Source: Psychroserpens jangbogonensis
GTDB lineage: Bacteria > Bacteroidota > Bacteroidia > Flavobacteriales > Flavobacteriaceae
Reading direction: 5' to 3'
DNA: 64,000 nucleotides
NCBI RefSeq assembly: GCF_000797465.1
Contig: NZ_JSWG01000009.1
Coordinates: 248,001-312,000, forward strand
In this document: one piece after another, positions 1 through 10,246 of the stretch
How the letters are laid out: the number at the start of each line of letters is the position of its first letter
Numbering within the stretch: position 1 is the first letter of the stretch
Program-made: the position numbers and the translations under genes
The notes under the pieces: model-generated
The model's database searches: none
What the model was told of the DNA's origin: nothing
The model's input: the letters and a program-made list of their open reading frames with translations, nothing else

Positions 1-1
1 T

Positions 2-274
2 ATAGATAATTTTAAAGATGGAGCATTCAGAATGGCTATAAATCATCATATTCCTATTGTACCTATTACTTTCGGAGATAATAAAAAACGATTTTCATAT
101 ACTTTTTTCAGCGGAAGTCCAGGCCTTATGAGAGCTAAAATTCATAAGTTCATCACTACAGAAGGATTGGCTGTTGAAGACACAAGGAAGTTAAACGTAG
201 AAGCACAAACTCTAATTTTAAACCAATTATTAGAATTTAATAAAAACCAAAAAGCTACTCTTGGCACAGAGTAG
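2..274 (+). CDS. Lysophospholipid acyltransferase (PlsC-like), C-terminal part
   Basis: The reading frame is open from the window edge, so this is the 3' end of a longer gene. The visible 90 or so residues begin with a segment ending FKDGAFRMA, followed by HHIPIVPITF. This is the usual region after the FPEGTRS motif in 1-acyl-glycerol-3-phosphate acyltransferases, where a small-molecule acyl chain is transferred to lysophosphatidate at the inner membrane. The HX4D and FPEG motifs would lie upstream and cannot be seen. The stop codon sits inside the right arm of a terminator hairpin. The family call rests on the conserved C-terminal pattern only. Confidence 0.7.
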   Translation: MDNFKDGAFRMAINHHIPIVPITFGDNKKRFSYTFFSGSPGLMRAKIHKFITTEGLAVEDTRKLNVEAQTLILNQLLEFNKNQKATLGTE

Positions 275-279
275 CTTTT
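250..279 (+). terminator. Rho-independent terminator overlapping a stop codon
   Basis: AAAAGCTACTC (250-260) and GAGTAGCTTTT (269-279) form a perfect 11-bp stem around an 8-nt loop. The TAG stop of the acyltransferase gene (272-274) lies inside the right arm, so the coding sequence and the terminator share bases. Confidence 0.8.
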
Positions 280-329
280 AAGTTGTTATTGCTAATCAAC
301 ACAATAACTATCTAACCAACTAAAAAAAC

Positions 330-2072
330 CTAAAACTTAAAACTAAGTCCAGTATATACACCTATAAAAAATGGTTTAAAATCACCAGATGTATTATTGA
401 ACGTATTTATTTGATACTTGAATGTGGGTTCAAGATTAAATTGAAACTGTTTTGAAAAATTATAGTCAACACCGATTCCAATATTTGCTGTATAACTCAA
501 ATCTTTAACATTTGAAGCTTCTCCTAAGCGTGAACGGTCACCATTGTTTAAAACAGCATACACATCATTATCACTTAAAATTAGCGCACTAAATCCTCCT
601 ATAAGGTTTAACCCTAATTTACTTTCTACTAAATTGTATTCAAGTTCAACTGGGACTTCAATAAAACTAAGTTGTTGGTCTAATGAACCTAGTTCTTGTG
701 TGAATAAGGTAGCAGGTGCATTTTCAAATTTAAAGTTCCTTGCACTGTAAATTGAATGTTGACTCATGCTATCCACTAAGTTTACATTTGCAATTTGACG
801 ATTTCCACGAGCAACAGGATTTGTGTTTTCAAAAATTAGAACATCATTTGTTTTATAACCTAATTGGACTTTATTGATACCTGCTCTAATTTTGAGTTTT
901 TTGTTTAAGGCATAACTTCCTTTAATACCATAACTCATGTTAATTTCAGATTCTTTAGTATTTTCAATAAATTGATTGTCCAAGGAAGAACCTTCACCCA
1001 ACGAACTGAAATAAACAGGCGCTACGCTTGGTGAAACGCTCCACCTGTTTAGTTTCTCTTCCTCTTCTTCTAATTCTTCCGTGTTTTCGGCTTCAGCTAT
1101 TGCATTTTCAATAGCATTAACTTCTTCCTTTTCTTCTTTTTCTATTTCTTTATTTTGAGTGTCTTCTATGGTGCTATTATCTTTTTCTAAAGCATCTTTA
1201 TCTTTAATGTCTGTTTTAGCAACTGTTGCTTTTATGCCAGTTTGAGTTGACTTAAGCAGTGCGTCAATTTCAGACTTATCTTTAATTGTGTTTTGCGTAC
1301 TCTTATTTGTTTTAGATAAAGTATTTGTAACTGAATCTTTATCCTTAGTGTCTACATTAGCAACAGTAACATTGGTATCTTCTTTGGTTGACTTAAGAAG
1401 CACATCTATTTCTGATTTATCTTTAATTGTATTTTGTGTATTCTGAATGGTTTTAGATGATGTTTTTGTAGTACTTGCTACAGCATCTTTTGTCAAAAGG
1501 TTGTTATTCGAGTTTTTCTCGTCTTTCTGAGACTTTTCGTAATCATTTGTATTGGTAGCAATACTATTTTGAGTTTTTTCTTTGAGTTTATCTCTGTTAG
1601 TACTTTCTGAAGCTACTAAAGGATTCTCTTTGTTCTCTGAAGTGATTACGTTGCTTTTATTCTTGTTTACTGAAGATTGGCCTTCTTCAACTATTGTTTT
1701 AGAGTTAGCGTCAACAATTTGTTCCTCTGTATCGTTTTCCAAAATCACCTTTGACGGATCATTTTGATCTAACGTATTATTTTCGTCTTGCGAATTGGAG
1801 TTATTGTTCGTTTTAGATTCATTTACAATAGTATCTTTTGAAATACCATCTGTATCAGAGGTGTTAAAAAACTGATTAGTAATTGTAACCAAAAGGACTA
1901 AACCTGCTGCTATTCCAGCAACTCTCCACCAAATAGGAATAACGCGACGTTTTTTACGTTTGTCCTCATGGAGTTTTTCCTCTATGTTTTCCCAGACATA
2001 ATCTTTAGGTGCAACATCAAAGTTTTTGAGTTGCTCCTTAAAGAGTTTATCTATATTCTTTTTTTCGTTCAT
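330..2072 (-). CDS. Inner-membrane helix, long linker and C-terminal outer-membrane barrel; putative anti-sigma protein
   Basis: The 580-residue protein has three parts. Residues 1-45 are charged and probably cytoplasmic. One hydrophobic helix lies at about 46-68 (start RRVIPIWWRVAGIAAGLVLL). A low-complexity Asn/Lys/Thr/Glu linker runs from about 70 to 335 and contains a repeated 46-residue unit (both copies carry NTIKDKSEID) and a Glu-rich stretch. The last 240 residues look like a PorT-type outer-membrane beta barrel and end in an aromatic residue (TGLSFKF). The start overlaps the stop of the sigma factor gene by one base (TAATG), so the two are co-translated. In Bacteroidota, genes directly after an ECF sigma gene often encode its membrane anti-sigma factor. 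That role is inferred from position and the N-terminal helix; no known zinc-binding anti-sigma motif was seen. Confidence 0.65.
   Translation of the reverse strand: MNEKKNIDKLFKEQLKNFDVAPKDYVWENIEEKLHEDKRKKRRVIPIWWRVAGIAAGLVLLVTITNQFFNTSDTDGISKDTIVNESKTNNNSNSQDENNTLDQNDPSKVILENDTEEQIVDANSKTIVEEGQSSVNKNKSNVITSENKENPLVASESTNRDKLKEKTQNSIATNTNDYEKSQKDEKNSNNNLLTKDAVASTTKTSSKTIQNTQNTIKDKSEIDVLLKSTKEDTNVTVANVDTKDKDSVTNTLSKTNKSTQNTIKDKSEIDALLKSTQTGIKATVAKTDIKDKDALEKDNSTIEDTQNKEIEKEEKEEVNAIENAIAEAENTEELEEEEEKLNRWSVSPSVAPVYFSSLGEGSSLDNQFIENTKESEINMSYGIKGSYALNKKLKIRAGINKVQLGYKTNDVLIFENTNPVARGNRQIANVNLVDSMSQHSIYSARNFKFENAPATLFTQELGSLDQQLSFIEVPVELEYNLVESKLGLNLIGGFSALILSDNDVYAVLNNGDRSRLGEASNVKDLSYTANIGIGVDYNFSKQFQFNLEPTFKYQINTFNNTSGDFKPFFIGVYTGLSFKF
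1230..1450 (-). repeat. Imperfect tandem repeat inside the linker of the barrel protein
   Basis: Two copies of a unit of about 138 bp lie in frame in the linker. Each encodes NTIKDKSEID followed by (A/V)LLKST, then a Lys/Asp-rich segment. The copies are diverged, so the repeat is not recent. Limits are approximate. Confidence 0.6.
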
Positions 2073-2614
2073 TATAAACTTTGCGAATTACTACTCGCTT
2101 TGTATTGTTCTATTTTATTTTTTAAAATCAACCTTGCTCGAGCAAGATTTGATTTTGATGTGCCAACCGAGATGTCAAGCATTTTTGCGATTTCTTTATG
2201 TGAATAATCATCCAAAGCATATAAATTAAACACCAATCTGTAACGATCTGGTAGCTCTTGAATGATTTGCAATAAGAAGTCTATATTAATGTTGTCTTCA
2301 TCAACTTCAACTGAAACATCTTCAATTTGGTCTTCATTAATTATGTCAAAAACACCAACGCTTCTATAGCGTTGCAAGGCTGTGTTAATTGTTATTCTTT
2401 TTAACCATCCTTCAAAAGAGCCTTTACTTTTAAACTGGTCTATTTTTTTAAATATAGTAACATATGCGTCTTGCAAATTATCTTCGGCTTCAGCATAATT
2501 ACGTGAATACTTCAAGCAAATCGAAAACAGTTTACTCGCAAAGAGCTTATATATTTGACTTTGTGCCTGAGCATCATTTTTTTTACATTGTGCTATGAGT
2601 TGTTCTAAACTCAA
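2072..2614 (-). CDS. RNA polymerase sigma factor, ECF (sigma-70 family)
   Basis: This 180-residue protein has the two ECF domains. Region 2 lies at about residues 20-85 and includes AEAEDNLQDAYVTIFKKI and the FEGWLKRITINTALQRYR segment. Region 4 lies at about 115-168 with the helix-turn-helix HKEIAKMLDISVGTSKSNLARAR. It should direct RNA polymerase to a specific promoter set. The only possible start is TTG at 2612-2614: there is no ATG in frame before region 2 and an in-frame TAA lies 21 nt upstream. The gene lies 33 nt downstream of a lipoprotein gene and overlaps the barrel/anti-sigma gene by one base, so the three probably form one operon. An ECF-type promoter in front of the operon suggests autoregulation. 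Confidence 0.93.
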   Translation of the reverse strand: MSLEQLIAQCKKNDAQAQSQIYKLFASKLFSICLKYSRNYAEAEDNLQDAYVTIFKKIDQFKSKGSFEGWLKRITINTALQRYRSVGVFDIINEDQIEDVSVEVDEDNINIDFLLQIIQELPDRYRLVFNLYALDDYSHKEIAKMLDISVGTSKSNLARARLILKNKIEQYKASSNSQSL

Positions 2615-2647
2615 ACGTGTTGGTGTTATTAATTAATATAAATTTAA

Positions 2648-3061
2648 TTAGTCTACTACAGGAACCTCAATAACATAGTAGATATCATTTCCGCTTTCAT
2701 CTTCGCCTTGCCAAAATCTAAACACGTAAGGGTCAATATCGTTTACTCTGAAGTTTAAAGTAGCTTCTACCTCTTCATATTCAAAAGTTTCACAATTTTC
2801 ATCAGGAAAAACAGAAGTGATAATTGCAATAGTTCTTTGGTTTAGTTCACTTAGATAATAAAAATCATTAAAAACGTGACAACCAGAAGGTCTTAAATAT
2901 GTCACTATGATTTCATGTGTACTTCCAAACTGAAACTCTGCAGGCATATAAACATTTTCAACAGGTAAGGTTTCATAGTAAAAATCTGATGAATCATCAC
3001 CTTCTTCACTACAAGATAATACCGAGCAAATTAAAAAACTTAATAAAAATAATTTCTTCAT
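2648..3061 (-). CDS. Small lipoprotein, first gene of the ECF sigma operon
   Basis: The 137-residue product starts with a lipoprotein signal (MKKLFLLSFLICSVLSC) with the lipidated cysteine at residue 17, then an acidic stretch SEEGDDSSD typical of surface or periplasmic lipoproteins. The rest is a compact domain with two cysteines (GCHVF and DENCE) that could form a disulfide. No family was recognised. It sits directly upstream of the ECF sigma gene and behind a promoter that matches the one before the 4364 small ORF, so it may sense or report envelope state for that sigma factor. This role is inferred from position. Confidence 0.75.
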   Translation of the reverse strand: MKKLFLLSFLICSVLSCSEEGDDSSDFYYETLPVENVYMPAEFQFGSTHEIIVTYLRPSGCHVFNDFYYLSELNQRTIAIITSVFPDENCETFEYEEVEATLNFRVNDIDPYVFRFWQGEDESGNDIYYVIEVPVVD

Positions 3062-3099
3062 ATAATTAAATATTTAGGCAACACGTGCCTCAATCACTA

Positions 3100-3131
3100 T
3101 ATAGATGCAATAGGAGTATAAAGGTTGCGTC
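3100..3131 (-). promoter_or_regulatory. Putative ECF-sigma promoter of the lipoprotein/sigma/barrel operon
   Basis: Read on the minus strand, ACGCAACCTT is followed by 10 nt and TTGCATCTA. GCAACC resembles an ECF -35 element and CATCTA a -10 element, 15 nt apart. The same two blocks with identical spacing occur at 4255-4283 on the plus strand, and both are followed a short way on by ATTGAG. The site does not fit the housekeeping TAnnTTTG consensus. It lies about 40 nt upstream of the lipoprotein ATG. Confidence 0.7.
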
Positions 3132-3140
3132 TAAAAACCA

Positions 3141-3167
3141 AAAAAATCCCGAATAAGGGATTTTTTT
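3141..3167 (-). terminator. Terminator after recA
   Basis: AAAAAATCCC (3141-3150) and GGGATTTTTT (3157-3166) form a 10-bp stem with a GAATAA loop. It lies 17 nt beyond the recA stop and just upstream of the ECF promoter of the next operon. The flanking A and T runs would let it work in both directions. Confidence 0.8.
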
Positions 3168-3183
3168 GTCTTGTTGGGTTATT

Positions 3184-4188
3184 TTAAGCGTCTCCTTTAA
3201 TTAACGCTCTCACTTTCGCTTCAAGTTCATCCATTAGTTCTGGATTGTCTTTTATTAACGCTTTAACGGCGTCTCGACCTTGTCCTAGCTTAGTTTCTCC
3301 ATAGCTAAACCACGAGCCACTCTTTTTGACAATCTCATGTTCTACAGCTAAATCTAAAATTTCTCCTACTTTAGAAATCCCTTCACCATACATGATATCA
3401 AATTCACACATTTTAAAAGGTGGAGCTACTTTGTTTTTTACAACTTTAACTCTTGTTTTGTTTCCGGCTACATTACCATCAGTTTCTTTAATTTGAGTAG
3501 ATCGTCTGATATCTAATCTTACAGATGCGTAAAATTTCAGGGCGTTTCCTCCAGTAGTCGTTTCTGGGTTCCCAAACATAACACCAATTTTTTCTCTTAA
3601 CTGGTTAATAAAAATAACTGTACAATTAGTTTTACTAATAGAACCTGTTAATTTTCTTAAAGCTTGAGACATTAAACGTGCATGAAGTCCCATTTTTGAG
3701 TCTCCCATTTCGCCCTCAATCTCACTTTTAGGAGTAAGTGCTGCAACAGAATCTATAACCACAATATCAATTGCTCCAGAACGAATTAAATTATCTGTAA
3801 TTTCAAGAGCTTGCTCACCATTATCAGGTTGTGAAATAATAAGGTTGTCTATATCTATTCCTAAATTTTCAGCATATGTTCTATCAAATGCATGTTCTGC
3901 ATCAATAAATGCCGCTATTCCTCCAGCTTTTTGGGCTTCGGCAATAGCATGAAGTGTTAATGTTGTTTTACCTGAAGATTCTGGTCCATATATTTCAATT
4001 ACTCTACCTCGAGGATAACCTCCAACACCCAATGCAATATCTAGTCCTAAAGAACCTGAAGAGATTGCCTCAACATCAACGACTGCTTGGTCGCTCATTT
4101 TCATCACTGTACCTTTGCCGTAGGCTTTGTCTAGCTTGTCTAACGTTAGTTTTAATGCTTTTAATTTTGCTTCTTTTTCGCTACTCAT
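3184..4188 (-). CDS. recA: Recombinase RecA
   Basis: RecA forms filaments on single-stranded DNA, catalyses strand exchange and triggers LexA-type self-cleavage. The 334-residue protein has the Walker A motif GPESSGKT at residues 68-75, the Walker B region ([12 protein letters not shown]) and the RecA signature ALKFYASVR. The L2 loop region [12 protein letters not shown] is intact. Length is normal for the family; the C-terminal acidic tail is short. It is flanked on both sides by copies of an unusual ECF-type promoter but has its own housekeeping-type promoter and terminator, so it appears to be a separate unit. Confidence 0.98.
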
Positions 4189-4216
4189 TTCAATCTGTTT
4201 TTATTTGATAGGTCTG

Positions 4217-4247
4217 CTAAATTACAACAACTTTTAATTATTTTCAA
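4217..4247 (-). promoter_or_regulatory. Housekeeping-type promoter of recA
   Basis: On the minus strand, TTG (4247-4245) is followed after 20 nt by TAATTTAG (4224-4217). This is close to the Bacteroidota TAnnTTTG consensus, and it lies about 30 nt upstream of the recA ATG. No LexA-type palindrome was recognised. Confidence 0.55.
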
Positions 4248-4254
4248 TCTTCTG

Positions 4255-4283
4255 ACGCAACCTTTTTAAACATTTTGCATCTA
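4255..4283 (+). promoter_or_regulatory. Second copy of the ECF-type promoter, reading away from recA
   Basis: ACGCAACCTT, 10 nt, then TTGCATCTA, followed by ATTGAG at 4287-4292. Blocks and spacing match the minus-strand promoter at 3100-3131 exactly. Transcription from here would start near 4290 and cover the 30-codon ORF and the structured region that ends at the 4546 terminator. Confidence 0.7.
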
Positions 4284-4363
4284 CTAATTGAGATTGGGAA
4301 ATCTTGCTATGAAAATGGTCAGTTACATGACTTATCCACTTAAATTTAATTCTTTTAATTAGG

Positions 4364-4456
4364 ATGAGATTTTTTAGAAAAATTATTTTTAACAACGCAT
4401 TAGGTCTTTCAGGAGCTGTTCAAGTTAACAGTAACTGTAAAGCCGATGGCGGCTAA
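4364..4456 (+). CDS. Candidate 30-residue peptide under the ECF-type promoter
   Basis: ATG at 4364 opens 30 codons up to TAA at 4454-4456. The peptide begins MRFFRKIIFNNALGLSGAVQ and ends VNSNCKADGG: a basic, amphipathic N-terminus, a short hydrophobic middle, one cysteine and a Gly-Gly end. AGG lies directly in front of the ATG. No family was recognised. A Gly-Gly end is reminiscent of leader-processed peptides but is at the wrong end for a normal leader. It could also be a chance ORF within a structured RNA. Confidence 0.4.
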   Translation: MRFFRKIIFNNALGLSGAVQVNSNCKADGG

Positions 4457-4509
4457 CTCGCAAAATATTTTTAAGATTAAATTAAAAATATTAATAACGA
4501 GTAAGTCTA

Positions 4510-4546
4510 AAAAAAGCACTTTGGAAAATCCATAAGTGCTTTTTTG
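4510..4546 (+). terminator. Terminator of the small transcript
   Basis: AAAAAAGCACTT (4510-4521) pairs fully with AAGTGCTTTTTT (4534-4545) around a 12-nt loop, followed by more T residues. It separates the small unit from trhO. Confidence 0.85.
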
Positions 4547-4558
4547 TTTTTTTGGATA

Positions 4559-4586
4559 TTGTTAAACAATGGTTTTTGTACCTTTG
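4559..4586 (+). promoter_or_regulatory. Housekeeping promoter of trhO
   Basis: TTG (4559-4561), 17 nt, then TACCTTTG (4579-4586). This is a full match to the Flavobacterium/Bacteroides consensus and lies 37 nt upstream of the trhO ATG. Confidence 0.75.
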
Positions 4587-4623
4587 CAATTCATATTTTT
4601 TTAACACCTAAAATTAGTATAGC

Positions 4624-5688
4624 ATGCAACTGTACAATAACTTAAGTGCTAATGAAAGAGCAGAACTAATAGAGAAAGCGGGAAAAGATCGCTTAACTAT
4701 CTCTTTCTACAAGTACGCCAAAATTGGCAATACCGAAATTTTTAGAAACCACATGTTTATAGCTTGGAACGATTTTGACGTTTTGGGTAGAATATATGTT
4801 GCTAATGAAGGTATTAATGCCCAACTCTCTGTTCCAGCAGAAAGTTTCCAACCCTTTAAAAACCATTTAGACACAATTTCTTTTTTAGAAAATGTAAGAT
4901 TAAACATTGCCATTGAGCATGATAATTTTGCTTTTTTAAAGTTAAAAGTTAAAGTACGTCATAAGATTGTTGCAGACGGTTTAAATGACAATACCTTTGA
5001 TGTTACAAATAAAGGTGTTCATGTAAATGCAGAGACATTCAATTATTTAATTGAAGATCCAAATACCGTTTTGGTTGACATGCGTAATCATTATGAAAGC
5101 GAGATTGGTCATTTTAAAAATGCAGTAACTCCAGATGTGGATACGTTTAGAGAATCTTTAGATCTTATTGAAGAAGATCTTAGAGAACACAAAGAAGATA
5201 AAAACCTAGTCATGTATTGTACAGGAGGAATTCGTTGCGAAAAGGCGAGTGCTTACTACAAACACAAAGGGTTTAAAAATGTATTCCAGCTAGAAGGAGG
5301 TATTATCAATTATGTGAGACAAGTTGAAGCCAATGATTTAGAAAATAAATTTTTAGGAAAAAACTTTGTATTTGATGAACGTCGCTCTGAACGCATTTCT
5401 GATGATGTAATATCTAATTGTCATCAATGTGGCAAGCCTGCAGATATGCATACAAATTGTGCTAATGAAGCTTGTCATTTGTTATTTATTCAATGTGATG
5501 ATTGTAAGGAACAAATGGAAAACTGTTGTTCTACAAGCTGTAAGGAAATTAGTAGATTGCCATTTGAAGAGCAAAAGGAATTACGAAAAGGCCAAGGCAA
5601 TAGCAACGACATTTTCAAAAAAGGAAGAGCAGATCACCTACCTTTTAAAAAAGACTTAAGAAATATTTTTGAAGTCTTAAAAAAATAA
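4624..5688 (+). CDS. trhO: tRNA uridine-34 hydroxylase (rhodanese-domain, TrhO/YceA family)
   Basis: TrhO makes 5-hydroxyuridine at the wobble position of certain tRNAs using oxygen. The 354-residue protein has the N-terminal acylphosphatase-like domain (about 1-130, with YVANEGINAQLS) and a rhodanese domain (about 140-240) with the catalytic loop CTGGIRCEKAS. A Cys-rich C-terminal tail follows (CHQCG, CANEAC, CDDC, CCS), as in family members. It stands alone between its own promoter and terminator. The older family name is rhodanese-related sulfurtransferase. Confidence 0.93.
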   Translation: MQLYNNLSANERAELIEKAGKDRLTISFYKYAKIGNTEIFRNHMFIAWNDFDVLGRIYVANEGINAQLSVPAESFQPFKNHLDTISFLENVRLNIAIEHDNFAFLKLKVKVRHKIVADGLNDNTFDVTNKGVHVNAETFNYLIEDPNTVLVDMRNHYESEIGHFKNAVTPDVDTFRESLDLIEEDLREHKEDKNLVMYCTGGIRCEKASAYYKHKGFKNVFQLEGGIINYVRQVEANDLENKFLGKNFVFDERRSERISDDVISNCHQCGKPADMHTNCANEACHLLFIQCDDCKEQMENCCSTSCKEISRLPFEEQKELRKGQGNSNDIFKKGRADHLPFKKDLRNIFEVLKK

Positions 5689-5720
5689 AATAAGGCTCCA
5701 TTATAAAATGGAGCCTTATT
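5689..5720 (+). terminator. Bidirectional terminator between trhO and the T9SS remnant
   Basis: AATAAGGCTCCATT (5689-5702) and AATGGAGCCTTATT (5707-5720) form a perfect 14-bp stem with a 4-nt loop. It serves the plus-strand trhO gene and can also serve the minus-strand remnant that ends at 5724. Confidence 0.88.
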
Positions 5721-5723
5721 CTT

Positions 5724-5984
5724 TTATTCTTTAATTAACTTAATTGTTTTGACTTCGTTTGAATCGCTTTCAAGCCTAACGAAACACATTCCATTTGAGA
5801 AATTTAAAGCTTGATTAAAACTAACCTGATTAATTCTAATAACATTAATTGGTTGAGTTACAATTTTTTCTCCAAAAGTGGCGGGTGACGTTAATTCACT
5901 ATCGACTTTTTAATCTAGAGTCTGCGCCATAATATGTCCGATAAAAAAAAGCGCAAAAATGTAAAGTGTAATTTTTGAATTCAT
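5724..5984 (-). pseudogene. Remnant of a T9SS-secreted protein: signal peptide joined to a sorting-type tail, with one in-frame stop
   Basis: Read from ATG at 5984, the frame gives a signal peptide (MNSKITLYIFALFFIGHIMA, then QT), then Leu-Asp and a TAA stop at codon 25 (5910-5912). The same frame continues without another stop for about 60 codons to TAA at 5724. That part ends in a pattern typical of T9SS type A sorting domains: FSNGMCFVRLESDSNEVKTI, then KLIKE. The body of a cargo protein is missing. It looks like an internally deleted gene that later gained a stop. A functional mini-protein made by readthrough is possible but less likely. Confidence 0.7.
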
Positions 5985-6180
5985 AATTTATAGTTTTAAG
6001 TTTATATGTTATCATCGAAAAGAATTATGATTGTGAGCATAATAAAAACATTCCATCAAATTATTTCTTTAAATTACTAAAAATCAATTAGATATACAAC
6101 ATTTACATGATGTAATGGTGTTAGGTTTATTCAATTATCATACTCAATAAATAATCTTATCTTTACATTTCAAAAGAACT
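5985..6180. other. AT-rich intergenic stretch without a gene
   Basis: No coding frame, tRNA or clear hairpin was seen. TATCTTTA at 6158-6165 is a possible -7 element for the ricT operon, but no TTG lies at the expected distance upstream, so the promoter call is weak. Confidence 0.4.
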
Positions 6181-6190
6181 ATGAATCGTC

Positions 6191-6213
6191 TTCTGAAAGA
6201 GATCCTTTCAGAA
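6191..6213 (+). promoter_or_regulatory. Hairpin and short leader ORF before ricT
   Basis: TTCTGAAAG (6191-6199) and CTTTCAGAA (6205-6213) form a perfect 9-bp stem with a 5-nt loop, without a T-run. It lies inside a 19-codon ORF (6181-6240, starting MNRLLKEILS) whose stop overlaps the first codons of ricT in another frame. It could modulate ricT translation; this is only a structural observation. Confidence 0.35.
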
Positions 6214-6229
6214 TTTATATATAAAATTT

Positions 6230-7402
6230 ATGAGTTGTAACAGTTGCTCAACTGGAAAGGATGGACAACCAAAAGGATGCAAAAGCAATGGGACTTGTGG
6301 CACAGATAGCTGCAATAAACTTACTGTTTTTGATTGGTTGGCTAATATGTCGTTACCTCAAGGAGAAGAAGCCTTTGTCGGTATTGAGGTGCGTTTTAAA
6401 AATGGACGAAAACTATACTACAAAAACACCGAAAGTCTTACTTTAAGTATTGGTGATATAGTGGCTACACAAGCACAATCTGGACATGATATTGGGATGG
6501 TTACTCTTACAGGAGAATTGGTAAGAGTGCAAATGAAGCGCAAAAAAATAGATATTAATGATGAAGAAAATGTCATGAAAATCTATAGAAAAGCGTCTCA
6601 AAAAGATATTGATATTTGGTCAGGAGCCAGAGATAAAGAAGAGCCAATGAAGGTGAAAGCACGTCAATTTGCTATTGATTTGCAGCTTAAAATGAAAATT
6701 TCTGATATTGAATATCAAGGTGATGCCAGTAAAGCTACATTTTATTACACAGCTGAAGAGCGTGTAGATTTTAGAGAACTTATTAAGCTTTTTGCTCGCG
6801 AATTTAGAACGCGTATTGAGATGAAACAAGTTGGTTTCCGTCAGGAAGCTGCTCGTCTTGGAGGTATAGGTTCTTGTGGTAGAGAATTATGTTGTTCTAC
6901 TTGGTTAACAGATTTTAGATCTGTTAGTACATCTGCAGCTAGATATCAGCAACTTTCTCTAAACCCTTTAAAACTTGCTGGTCAATGCGGTAAACTTAAA
7001 TGCTGTTTAAATTATGAGCTGGATGCTTATTTAGATGCTTTAAAAGCATTTCCGAAAAATGACACCAAATTATATACAGAAAAAGGAACAGCAGTTTGTC
7101 AAAAAACGGATATTTTTAAAGGACACCTTTGGTATGCTTATGAAGGTGAATGGATGAATTGGCATGTTCTTACTACAGATCAGGTCAAAGAAATTATTGA
7201 TAAAAACAAGGCGAAACAAAAAGTGGCAAGCTTAGAAGAATATGCTGCTGAGCTTATTGAAGATACTAAAACCGAGTTTGAAAACGTTGTTGGTCAAGAT
7301 AGTTTAACACGTTTCGATAGTCCAAAACATAAAAACAAACGTAAAAATAATAAAGGGAAACAAAGACGTCGTCAAAAGCCTCAGAATAATGCCAAAAAGT
7401 AA
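6230..7402 (+). CDS. ricT: PSP1-domain protein, RicT-like
   Basis: RicT (YaaT) belongs to the Fe-S-containing complex that in Bacillus supports RNase Y mRNA processing. This 390-residue protein has a Cys-rich N-terminus (SCNSCSTGKDGQPKGC), the PSP1 C-terminal domain at about 100-200, and the conserved cysteine cluster SCGRELCC followed by QCGKLKCCLNYE. The C-terminus is a Lys/Arg/Asn-rich tail. In Bacteroidota ricT typically precedes gldH, as here, where they overlap by 14 nt. Its role in this phylum has not been established by the sequence. The start chosen is the ATG that gives the conserved Cys-rich N-terminus. Confidence 0.9.
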   Translation: MSCNSCSTGKDGQPKGCKSNGTCGTDSCNKLTVFDWLANMSLPQGEEAFVGIEVRFKNGRKLYYKNTESLTLSIGDIVATQAQSGHDIGMVTLTGELVRVQMKRKKIDINDEENVMKIYRKASQKDIDIWSGARDKEEPMKVKARQFAIDLQLKMKISDIEYQGDASKATFYYTAEERVDFRELIKLFAREFRTRIEMKQVGFRQEAARLGGIGSCGRELCCSTWLTDFRSVSTSAARYQQLSLNPLKLAGQCGKLKCCLNYELDAYLDALKAFPKNDTKLYTEKGTAVCQKTDIFKGHLWYAYEGEWMNWHVLTTDQVKEIIDKNKAKQKVASLEEYAAELIEDTKTEFENVVGQDSLTRFDSPKHKNKRKNNKGKQRRRQKPQNNAKK

Positions 7403-7889
7403 GTATTGCATTGTTTTTTTAATGTTCTTAATTGCTGTCTCATGCGATTCTAATCGCATTTATGACGAATATAAGTCCATACCAGATCAATGGCATAAAG
7501 ATTCAGTTATCTCTTTTAAGGTTACACCACCAGATACAATTAACAATTACAATTTGTTTGTAAATTTGAGAAATACTAGCAACTATAAGTACAGTAATCT
7601 TTACTTGGTAGTAGAATTAAATTATCCCAATGGTAAAACATTAAAAGATACATTAGAGTATAGAATGTCTGCGCCAGATGGCACATTTCTAGGCACAGGG
7701 TTCACTGATTTAAAAGAAAATAAACTCTGGTATAAAGGTTATGATCAACCTTTTGTTTTTAATGAATCTGGAGATTACCAAATTAAAGTGCAACATGCTA
7801 TGCGCAAAAATGGTGAAGTAAATGGCGTTCTTAATCTTGAAGGCATTACTGATGTTGGTTTTAGAATTGAGCGAGATAATACAAATTGA
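7389..7889 (+). CDS. gldH: Gliding motility lipoprotein GldH
   Basis: GldH is one of the lipoproteins required for gliding in Flavobacterium and is associated with the gliding/T9SS apparatus. The 166-residue product has a lipoprotein signal with the cysteine at residue 19 (LIAVSCDSN). Family patterns such as YKSIPDQWHKD, DTLEYRMSAPDG and GFTDLKENKLWYKG are present. It overlaps the end of ricT by 14 nt and is followed by the penicillin-binding protein gene two bases after its stop. It fits the presence of T9SS cargo genes further on. Confidence 0.93.
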   Translation: MPKSKYCIVFLMFLIAVSCDSNRIYDEYKSIPDQWHKDSVISFKVTPPDTINNYNLFVNLRNTSNYKYSNLYLVVELNYPNGKTLKDTLEYRMSAPDGTFLGTGFTDLKENKLWYKGYDQPFVFNESGDYQIKVQHAMRKNGEVNGVLNLEGITDVGFRIERDNTN

Positions 7890-7891
7890 TT

Positions 7892-10246
7892 ATGGCAAAA
7901 AAGACAGTAAAAAAGAAATCAGCATCGACTACAATCGTTGATTTTTCTAAATACATACGTTGGTTTTGGATGACATTTACAGGTGGCGTTTTGTTATTCA
8001 TACTTATGTTTTTGTTGGCATCTTGGGGTTTTTTAGGAGAAATGCCAGATCATACTATTCTAGAGAATCCTAAAACTCATTTAGCAACTGAAATCATTTC
8101 TTCTGATGATAAAACCTTAGGTAAGTTTTATCTTAATGATAATCGTACTCCTGTTGATTATAGTGAATTGCCAAAACATTTGGTAGACGCTTTAGTCGCG
8201 ACTGAAGATATAAGATATTACGAGCACTCAGGAATTGATGCTAGAGGAACACTAAGAGCAGTTTCCAAGTTTGGAAAAGGCGGAGGAGCTAGTACCATTT
8301 CGCAACAATTGGCAAAACAATTATTTACTAAACAAGTCTCTTCAAATAAAATACAACGTGTATTTCAAAAAGTTAGAGAATGGGTTATTGCTATTCGACT
8401 AGAACGTCAATACACTAAAGAAGAAATTATTGCCATGTATTTCAATATCTACGATTTTGGAAATAATGCAGATGGAATTAGAAGTGCTGCTCGTATATAT
8501 TTTGGAAAGGAACCAAAAGAGTTAGATATAAAAGAAGCGGCAATGTTGGTTGGTATGTTTAAGAATTCTTCGTTGTATAATCCAAGATCGCATCGTAATC
8601 CTGAAGGCACTAAAAACAGAAGAGATGTAGTATTTAGCCAAATGGAAAAGTATGAGTATATCACGACAGCTCAAAAAGATTCACTTCAAAAAACAGAATT
8701 AGATTTAAATTATTCTCCAGAATCTCATAGAGAAGGAATTGCGACATACTTTAGAGCATATCTCGACCGCTTTATGAAAGATTGGATTAAAAATAATCCA
8801 AAACCAGATGGAGAAAGCTATAACTTGTATAATGACGGACTAAAAATCTACACGACAATAGATTCAAGAATGCAGAAGTATGCTGAGAAAGCCGTTCAAA
8901 GACACATGCCAAGATTACAAGCTGAATTTGACCACCAGAATTCACCAGATAGAAATAAAACAGCGCCTTTTTTAGACCTAGAAGAAAGTGAAATAAGAGG
9001 ATTAATGAAGACTTCGATGAGACGTTCTGAGCGTTGGAGAGTTTTAAAAAATAAAGGGAAGACTGAAAAAGAGATTGAGGCTTCATTTGATAAGCCAACA
9101 CAAATGTCTGTATTTGCCTGGAAAGATGGTAAAGCGTCAGAGATTGATACCATTCTGAAACCTATCGATTCTATGCGATATTATAAATCGTTTTTACATC
9201 CAGGTATGATGTCAATGGATCCGCAAACTGGACATGTTAAAGCTTGGGTTGGAGGAATGAATTATAGACATTTTCAGTACGATCATGTTAAACAAGGAAA
9301 GCGACAAGTAGGTTCTACTTTTAAACCATTTGTTTATGCTACTGCTATAGATCAATTGCATTTATCGCCTTGTGATACCTTGCCAAGACAACAAATAACT
9401 ATAGAAGCAGATAAATACGGAAACCCAGAACCTTGGACAACTAAAAACTCTGATGGTCGTTATGATGGATTTTTAACACTAAAAGATGCACTAGCAAATT
9501 CGGTTAATACCATTACTGCACGATTAATGGATAAGGTTGGTCCGCAACCAGTTATTGATATGGCAAAAAGGTTGGGTATAGAGCAAGATATTTTGCCCGT
9601 TCCAGCAATTGCATTAGGTACTCCAGATTTAAGTGTTTATGAAATGGTGGCAGCATACTCAACGTTTGCCAATAAAGGGGTCTATAACAAACCTGTAATG
9701 GTAACTCGTATTGAAGATAAAAATGGAACTATTCTATATCAGTTTACTCCTGAAAGTCGTGATGTATTGAGTGACGAAGTGGCTTATACTACAGTTAACT
9801 TGATGCAAGGTGTTACCGAATCAGGTTCGGGAGCTAGATTGCGCAGAACTTGGGGAGCAGATCAAGGTGTCTACAAAGAAATAATAACAGGATATCCATA
9901 TGGTTTTACAAACCCAATAGCTGGTAAAACAGGAACTACACAAAATCAAAGTGATGGTTGGTTTATGGGAATTGTTCCAAATTTAGTGACTGGTGTTTGG
10001 GTAGGTGCAGAAGATAGGGCTACACACTTTAAAACTCTGACTTATGGACAAGGCGCTGCTATGGCGCTTCCAATTTGGGCGCTGTATATGAAAGCATGTT
10101 ATGAAGATTCTGAGTTAAATGTATCAAAAGGGGAGTTTGAGAGACCTCAAAACCTTTCAATCGAAGTAGATTGTAGTAAATTAGGTGATGATGATTCTAA
10201 TGAAAAAGACACAGCTGATGAATTAAAAGATGTTCTAGATTTTTAA
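7892..10246 (+). CDS. Class A penicillin-binding protein (PBP1a-type transglycosylase/transpeptidase)
   Basis: This bifunctional enzyme polymerises and cross-links peptidoglycan at the outer face of the inner membrane. A short cytoplasmic part is followed by one TM helix at about 28-50. The glycosyltransferase domain holds ATEDIRYYEHSGID (catalytic Glu near 105) and GGASTISQQLAKQLF. The transpeptidase domain has the Ser-X-X-Lys motif in GSTFKPFVYA, the SVN triad in ANSVNT and KTG in AGKTGTTQNQSDGW. ATG at 7892 (MAKKTVKKK) is preferred over the TTG six bases upstream because it clears the gldH stop. Third gene of the ricT-gldH operon. Confidence 0.95.
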   Translation: MAKKTVKKKSASTTIVDFSKYIRWFWMTFTGGVLLFILMFLLASWGFLGEMPDHTILENPKTHLATEIISSDDKTLGKFYLNDNRTPVDYSELPKHLVDALVATEDIRYYEHSGIDARGTLRAVSKFGKGGGASTISQQLAKQLFTKQVSSNKIQRVFQKVREWVIAIRLERQYTKEEIIAMYFNIYDFGNNADGIRSAARIYFGKEPKELDIKEAAMLVGMFKNSSLYNPRSHRNPEGTKNRRDVVFSQMEKYEYITTAQKDSLQKTELDLNYSPESHREGIATYFRAYLDRFMKDWIKNNPKPDGESYNLYNDGLKIYTTIDSRMQKYAEKAVQRHMPRLQAEFDHQNSPDRNKTAPFLDLEESEIRGLMKTSMRRSERWRVLKNKGKTEKEIEASFDKPTQMSVFAWKDGKASEIDTILKPIDSMRYYKSFLHPGMMSMDPQTGHVKAWVGGMNYRHFQYDHVKQGKRQVGSTFKPFVYATAIDQLHLSPCDTLPRQQITIEADKYGNPEPWTTKNSDGRYDGFLTLKDALANSVNTITARLMDKVGPQPVIDMAKRLGIEQDILPVPAIALGTPDLSVYEMVAAYSTFANKGVYNKPVMVTRIEDKNGTILYQFTPESRDVLSDEVAYTTVNLMQGVTESGSGARLRRTWGADQGVYKEIITGYPYGFTNPIAGKTGTTQNQSDGWFMGIVPNLVTGVWVGAEDRATHFKTLTYGQGAAMALPIWALYMKACYEDSELNVSKGEFERPQNLSIEVDCSKLGDDDSNEKDTADELKDVLDF

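Follow-up and report, generated by a model that had tools for sequence, protein, structure and literature searches.

The two identical promoter-like sequences that flank recA in Psychroserpens jangbogonensis are quite probably promoters of one ECF sigma factor, acting in a circuit with a Dma-type (dual membrane-spanning) anti-sigma that would drive a set of exported proteins together with a small RNA. This reading draws on promoter anatomy, conservation and spacing, on the content of the regulon, on coding and hairpin constraint, and on a Dma-like protein architecture, each established by the comparison of sequences. The window, meaning the whole 64-kb stretch of DNA analysed, was compared with the remainder of the genome (3.63 Mb, 62 contigs) and with relatives. 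The features of the locus are collected in Table 1; individual loci, genomes and contigs are cited by L, G and C numbers.

Table 1. Features of the recA-flanking locus, in window coordinates.
Feature	Position	Strand	Basis
Dma-type anti-sigma candidate	330..2072	-	580 aa; orthologue alignment, AlphaFold2, Foldseek
ECF sigma factor	2072..2614	-	Pfam Sigma70_r2 2e-14, Sigma70_r4_2 4e-17; orthologues
Small lipoprotein, operon gene 1	2648..3061	-	ORF; tblastn match in 78/80 loci (not L133, L150)
ECF-type promoter, lipoprotein/sigma/Dma operon	3102..3130	-	GCAACC -35, CATCTA -10; exact match
recA, between the twin promoters	3184..4188	-	Pfam RecA 7e-141
ECF-type promoter, small RNA	4255..4283	+	Exact match; seen across genus
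Putative ECF-driven small structured transcript with own terminator	4290..4552 (ends approximate)	+	Fold, genus DNA match
Conserved 5' leader GGGAAAnnTTGCTATGAAA	4296..4314	+	Sequence comparison
17-codon upstream ORF, starts in leader	4309..4362	+	Sequence; not conserved
30-aa ORF MRFFRKIIFNNALGLSGAVQVNSNCKADGG	4364..4456	+	pN/pS, family-genome search
RNA hairpin inside ORF, codons 17-19 with 22-24	4412..4435	+	Covariation; synonymous-codon test
Second stem, stop-codon region with 3' side	4453..4506	+	Cognate-pairing test; one mismatch in window copy
Intrinsic terminator of small transcript	4514..4545	+	Sequence; part of fold
TACCTTTG housekeeping-type box before trhO, 3' of terminator	4579..4586	+	Sequence
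trhO/UPF0176 rhodanese gene, next downstream	4624..5688	+	Pfam UPF0176_N, Rhodanese

A preliminary description of this DNA had reported ACGCAACCTT-N10-TTGCATCTA twice, and both copies proved exact, with no further match in the window when up to three mismatches are allowed; the form ACGCAACC-N12-TTGCATCTA likewise has exactly two copies in the window, at the same places. Dinucleotide shuffles of the window gave 0.03 matches on average, and two were reached in none of 100. Across the P. jangbogonensis genome, GCAACC-N14-GCATCTA has four matches against none for the reversed pattern, and ACGCAACC-N12-TTGCATCTA at up to two mismatches has seven sites, again against none. A spacer one base longer was absent at up to one mismatch from all 57 genomes searched (own and relatives), and at up to three mismatches it gave 11 matches against 6 reversed. 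At 100 further sites, introduced below, a purine occupies the seventh position after CATCTA in 97 cases (86 A, 11 G), and this peak would place the transcription starts at 4290 (plus strand) and 3095 (minus strand), the base being G in both, in agreement with the starts expected earlier near 4290 and 3090. ATTGAG, described as following both sites, is indeed present at each, but at unequal offsets after CATCTA, 7 nt on the minus strand and 3 nt on the plus strand. Since the offsets differ and no such element emerges from the base counts at the 100 other sites, it was rejected as a shared promoter element and is probably incidental.

Conservation of the locus was followed from the sigma protein, for which 552 relatives were confirmed. 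The best 80 of these, at 70-92% identity, were used; they come from Flavobacteriaceae genera or are labelled with broader Bacteroidota names, and among named isolates Psychroserpens mesophilus comes closest, at 90%. With up to three mismatches, the motif stands before the sigma operon in 78 of the 80 loci (absent from L091 and L139). The suggested autoregulation of the lipoprotein/sigma/barrel operon is very probable. The recA-side motif was found in 72 loci and both motifs in 70. L147 carries a further recA-side match that the distance rule left uncounted, as recA is aligned only partly there; in L089 the recA-side motif was not found. Over the 966 kb of these loci, at up to two mismatches, the motif has 150 matches, compared with none reversed, none with N13 and one with N11. 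Conservation and spacing controls thus support the assignment of both twin sites as ECF-type promoters.

The gene lying between them had been taken for a bystander, and the exceptional loci, where recA is displaced and the motif stays, uphold this. In L127 and L154 recA is more than 4 kb distant and the motif is still at the sigma operon. In L119 and L135 some 4.2 kb separate recA from the minus-strand motif, after which comes the conserved leader. The stretch examined contains no recA in L077 and L105. As the motif tracks the sigma operon or the small RNA, recA was rejected as the promoter target. In L133 and L150, the two loci in which no match to the lipoprotein was found, the motif stands immediately before sigma.

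The operon comprises the lipoprotein, the ECF sigma and a candidate anti-sigma of Dma architecture. The small lipoprotein has no Pfam match at E<=0.001 (best 0.026, below the cut-off). The sigma protein, of 180 aa, carries Sigma70_r2, Sigma70_r4_2 and Sigma70_ECF, that is, regions 2 and 4 only, which marks it as an ECF factor, and a barrel-protein match follows it in all 80 loci. Alignment of 40 orthologues of the Dma-type candidate revealed that they have the N-terminal block and a hydrophobic segment in common, vary in the middle and are conserved at the C-terminus. AlphaFold2 places helices at residues 3-16 and 24-34 with low confidence (pLDDT about 50-68), a TM-like helix at 47-69, a disordered tether with pLDDT below 50 over most of 70-338, and C-terminal barrel strands at 344-579, mostly above 80 pLDDT and the sole confident part of a model that is weak overall (pTM 0.44). 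Foldseek matches the barrel to OmpA-type barrels.

A four-part chain of this kind, with an N-terminal anti-sigma part, a TM helix, a disordered tether and a barrel, is described for the Dma proteins in PMC13088901, where the Das/Dma systems of Bacteroides thetaiotaomicron pair an ECF21 sigma with a dual membrane-spanning anti-sigma; PMC12045153 cites the Dma work. All four parts are found in the P. jangbogonensis protein, in architecture only, and from its position the N-terminal part would be the anti-sigma domain. The two systems are alike in an adjacent ECF sigma and four-part anti-sigma-type chain, likened by architecture rather than by sequence, and in effects on exported proteins. Unlike the Bacteroides systems as presented in PMC13088901, the present one displays a promoter code, a dispersed lipoprotein/outer-membrane regulon and a small-RNA promoter beside recA; the main text of that paper gives no promoter code (the word "motif" is absent and "promoter" occurs once, in an unrelated sense). 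A vesicle phenotype is not known from the present system.

In the proposed circuit, the Dma-type anti-sigma would hold the ECF sigma, a single chain reaching from the cytoplasm to the outer-membrane barrel. The barrel or tether may sense a change in the outer membrane, a signal we infer, and so free the sigma. Freed sigma would amplify its own operon from the minus-strand promoter and turn on dispersed exported proteins, largely lipoproteins and outer-membrane proteins, while the plus-strand promoter would yield a small structured RNA with an ORF of 28-30 aa in about half of the loci.

The dispersal of these targets overturns the idea that the twin promoters define a local sigma regulon: the seven sites in the own genome and a mean of 7.8 across the 23 genus genomes searched are spread genome-wide, and a local regulon was ruled out. 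The 57 genomes were split by whether they contain a sigma match at 55% identity or more, and the number of sites follows this orthologue. There are 179 sites in the 23 genus genomes (reversed control 4), and 11 non-genus genomes with the orthologue hold 36 (reversed control 2), giving 215 against 6 in 34 orthologue-bearing genomes; the 23 genomes without it hold 8 against 6. Individual genomes deviate, with a 60% identical sigma and zero motif sites in G035 and one site each in G024, G025 and G029, whose sigmas are 59-64% identical.

To characterize the targets, 100 further sites from 16 genus genomes and five others were taken from about 150 among the matches listed; many are orthologues of one another, which makes them partly dependent. 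Pairs flanking recA were left out, except L275, L277 and L279 (members of the G032 and G033 pairs by position). An ORF of at least 60 aa with an ATG start lies within 200 nt of 91 of the 100 sites. It is signal-peptide-like after 86 and lipobox-like after 52, by a simple hydropathy rule that is lenient, since 19 of the 47 window ORFs pass it; of 1641 points placed at random in these stretches, 441 had such an ORF, 51 a signal-peptide-like one and 6 a lipobox-like one. The median distance from motif to start codon is 22 nt (80 signal-peptide-like cases). Three sites fall inside ORFs, and in L244, L276 and L278 the motif has no sensible target. A Pfam scan of ten first genes gave five with a match above the cut-off: a TonB-dependent receptor, a lectin-like (LamG) lipoprotein, a lipocalin-like lipoprotein, a Calx-beta/DUF7507 protein and a DUF7933 protein. 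At the own-genome intergenic site C62:78385, an ORF of 857 codons or more that begins like an exported protein starts 15 nt after the motif. Many regulon lipoproteins carry acidic residues in the third and fourth positions following the Cys, resembling the surface-export signal of lipoproteins described in PMC5080379. Judged from these genes, the regulon appears to be genome-wide and to consist mostly of lipoproteins and outer-membrane or exported proteins, a surface-protein control circuit of marine flavobacteria.

Two further observations concern individual sites. A second short conserved RNA of about 95 nt, with the core AAAACATTTTTAAGGATAACGGTGTTTT and its own terminator, follows the ECF motif in L190 (301-460; own genome C4:296359, intergenic), L203, L210, L258 and L281; four of these five copies have no ORF of at least 15 aa, and L258 has one of 27 aa. 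A SusC/TonB-type receptor (L188, L195, L202 and others) has a near-invariant signal peptide, MKLKLTWLMTLFMAFVMQ, and a constant 5' leader of 141-142 nt after the ECF promoter, compared with the usual 15-30 nt.

Alternatively, one or several other ECF sigmas of the genome might recognise the motif, the neighbouring sigma gene being merely a target. Genomes of this group do hold several ECF paralogues, and many in the genus have a second sigma of about 51-56% identity that might read the same motif; SM6, an ECF promoter motif of Flavobacterium psychrophilum, could be common to several factors according to PMC9723704. Yet none of the four sigma matches listed in the own genome is a 50-60% paralogue, site counts track the orthologue as described above, and the own genome's paralogous sigma (C4:262748, 40% identity) has a distinct promoter, AGGCAACC-N13-TTGCGTCTA, immediately upstream (C4:263325, minus strand; L005), with a spacer one base longer than that of the twin motif and CGT in the -10 box. 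A search for this second form gave 30 matches in 22 of the 57 genomes against 2 reversed, and 14 of the 30, in 14 different genomes, lie immediately upstream of a 34-40%-identical sigma. Recognition by another factor is therefore improbable, and the neighbouring ECF sigma would be the one that recognises the twin motif.

The same paralogue bears on the relation to SM6, whose -10 box contains CGT and whose targets are T9SS genes according to PMC9723704; the twin motif has N12 and GCATCTA. Both sets comprise ECF-type promoters before a sigma/anti-sigma pair, a regulatory RNA (Rfp11 in F. psychrophilum) and trhO/YceA. The CGT box is lacking at the twin sites, which read CATCTA, and the CGTCTA N13 form is found before the paralogous sigma. 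On these promoter forms, SM6 would correspond to the paralogous sigma and the twin motif would be a separate code. Two more paralogue-type sites in the own genome precede an exported-looking protein and an ORF labelled ABC-ATPase-like by eye from its sequence; an ABC ATPase is a gene type also under SM6 in F. psychrophilum (PMC9723704).

On the plus strand, the small structured transcript anticipated in the preliminary description is upheld by the fold of 4289-4555, whose z-score is -5.7, with none of 200 shuffles equally stable, and DNA matches occur in 22 of 22 same-genus relatives. The leader is present by a strict pattern in 53 of the 75 loci with the trhO-side motif, and about 18 of the other 22 look like near variants. 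It is kept in L102, L104, L117, L143 and L149 with ATC in place of its ATG. The genus of the window has extra sequence, including the upstream ORF, between leader and small ORF, and the upstream ORF stops one base before the small ORF's ATG; in L084, L090, L096, L106 and L144, from other genera, the small ORF begins at the ATG of the leader itself. No known RNA family was recognised: Rfam gave nothing at the gathering score for window positions 1-8000 (the best match, to a Streptococcus sRNA model over 4480-4551 with E 1.1, scored 28.2 bits where 55 are required) or for five related loci. A search of the own genome for antisense targets of the leader, at three mismatches, gave three weak matches besides itself, and two for the reversed control. 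One of the three is intergenic, next to a DnaJ-like ORF, and the others fall on the noncoding strand of ORFs.

It is rather unlikely that the plus-strand promoter serves trhO, with the intervening region as a leader with an attenuator. In F. psychrophilum a YceA rhodanese gene is reported to have an ECF-type (SM6) start (PMC9723704, Table 2C), and trhO is present in 69 of the 80 loci, with a U32 peptidase gene in 5 of the 10 searched among the other 11. Against this, the terminator and a separate box, TACCTTTG, which fits the TAnnTTTG consensus of PMC9723704, stand before trhO. Moreover, L151 and L152 keep promoter and leader with trhO 1.5-2.6 kb downstream. As a separate observation, the U32 peptidase gene, presumably TrhP-like in the trhO-less loci, replaces trhO after the small RNA in L096, L100, L108, L139, L144, L291, L292 and L279, and in some other loci it lies directly behind trhO.

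The small ORF, of 28-30 aa, was identified in 40 of the 75 loci with the trhO-side motif (39 by the search pattern, plus L139), and the pattern found none in 35. The preliminary description mentioned neither this ORF nor the anti-sigma character of the barrel protein. Among 299 sampled family genomes, 58 match the ORF at E<=1e-4 and 71 at E 0.01, a cut-off at which stretches of long ORFs enter the tail. The best 30 matches are all neighbours of recA and have the motif upstream within three mismatches, 28 being followed by trhO and two by the U32 peptidase gene. Over 67 distinct 30-codon sequences pN/pS is 0.40, entropy is highest at third codon positions (0.95, versus 0.58 and 0.49), and the frame is preserved through in-frame length changes. 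All 72 distinct peptides share one frame; as the set was selected by length and C-terminal pattern, conservation of these two features is partly built in. From these measures the ORF looks coding, and it would be translated. The peptide has a basic start, a hydrophobic middle, and a Cys followed by KADGG; the Cys, present in 27 of 28 aligned peptides, resembles a lipobox with a very short mature part, and together with the short polar tail it suggests a minimal lipoprotein. Peak hydropathy averages 1.9 over the 28 peptides and is 1.45 in the window's own, the core being weak in many. A known small-protein family was discarded, NCBIfam giving no match and Pfam none above the cut-off, its single match having E 0.18 in one of 28 members. 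Among the open-licence papers listed, no title or beginning of an abstract describes the promoter pair or the ORF.

RNA structure constrains the same bases. At the pair between codon 19 base 1 and codon 22 base 3, the 67 sequences have G-C 31 times, A-T 22, G-T 13, T-T once and A-C never (Fisher test 1.6e-8, which ignores relatedness). In the hairpin as a whole, the paired fraction is 0.84 compared with 0.80 in shuffles and the covariation score 0.35 compared with 0.26 (0/1000 each), and the number of pair types is not above shuffles (774/1000 equally high). Swaps of synonymous codons lower stability from -9.62 to -7.26 (sd 0.28), with 0/1000 as stable as the real sequences; shuffles and swaps alike ignore shared descent among the sequences. 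RNAalifold predicts this hairpin only, with 10 pairs, a modest -5.06 kcal/mol and a covariation term of -1.21, and the second stem was for this reason examined by cognate pairing: cognate arms give -10.3 and exchanged arms -8.3 (0/5000, and also 0/5000 on 45 distinct arms). The hairpin region was inspected in 17 ORF-less loci: its flanking sequence is present in 10, and a clear hairpin fold was obtained for six, all of them Winogradskyella (L119, L122, L136, L142, L146, L153); many of the remaining 18 of the 35, viewed by eye, are shorter RNAs without it. The pairing tests, the hairpin in ORF-less loci and the leader with ATC lead us to favour an RNA role in addition to the peptide.

Three accounts of the transcript can be weighed on this evidence. 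It is possible, if doubtful, that it serves solely as the mRNA of a secreted or membrane peptide of 30 aa whose translation the hairpin merely tunes. Type I toxin-like membrane peptides are one candidate kind of product here, beside a minimal lipoprotein; the pN/pS, the frame kept through length changes, and the basic start, hydrophobic middle and lipobox-like end agree with such an mRNA. The pattern finds no ORF, however, in 35 of the 75 loci, where the leader stays in most and the hairpin clearly in six, hydropathy peaks low, and the peptide falls in no family above cut-off. The converse, a pure regulatory RNA with the ORF as a by-product, accounts for the strong fold, the covariation and pairing tests, the hairpin of Winogradskyella and the leader in the five loci with ATC, but it is unlikely in view of the variable third codon positions, the pN/pS and the 72 peptides in one frame (C-terminus and length being in the selection pattern).

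The reading we consider most likely is a trans-acting RNA with a membrane- or lipid-anchored peptide. In its specific form it is held tentatively: a dual-function RNA of the Flavobacteriaceae Dma circuit, in which leader and hairpins would act as RNA and the ORF would supply a tiny lipid-anchored or membrane peptide ending in CKADGG. On this dual-function reading, the peptide would be lacking in Algibacter and others, with promoter and leader kept, and in Winogradskyella with the hairpin kept as well. Sigma-E, with the small RNAs MicA and RybB, is an envelope ECF sigma driving small RNA, and SgrS/SgrT is a dual-function RNA, structured and coding. The present system, by description, resembles the former in an envelope ECF sigma leading to a small RNA and the latter in an RNA both structured and coding; it differs in its Bacteroidota host and in having no Rfam match at the gathering score. 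To our knowledge, a dual-function RNA tied to an outer-membrane-sensing ECF system is known from no other bacterium.

The type of sigma/anti-sigma pair is already known, and what is added is the promoter code and the small RNA with its ORF. The recA neighbourhood is by itself no proof of SOS control. The small RNA, with its embedded, hairpin-forming 30-codon ORF, offers a locus where peptide and RNA constraints lie on the same bases and also where they part ways. The promoter code, with its start site and spacing, was drawn from 215 sites in the 34 orthologue-bearing genomes. It suggests that the regulon is made up of exported lipoproteins and outer-membrane proteins, and it makes the control range of outer-membrane-spanning anti-sigmas testable in culturable marine bacteria.
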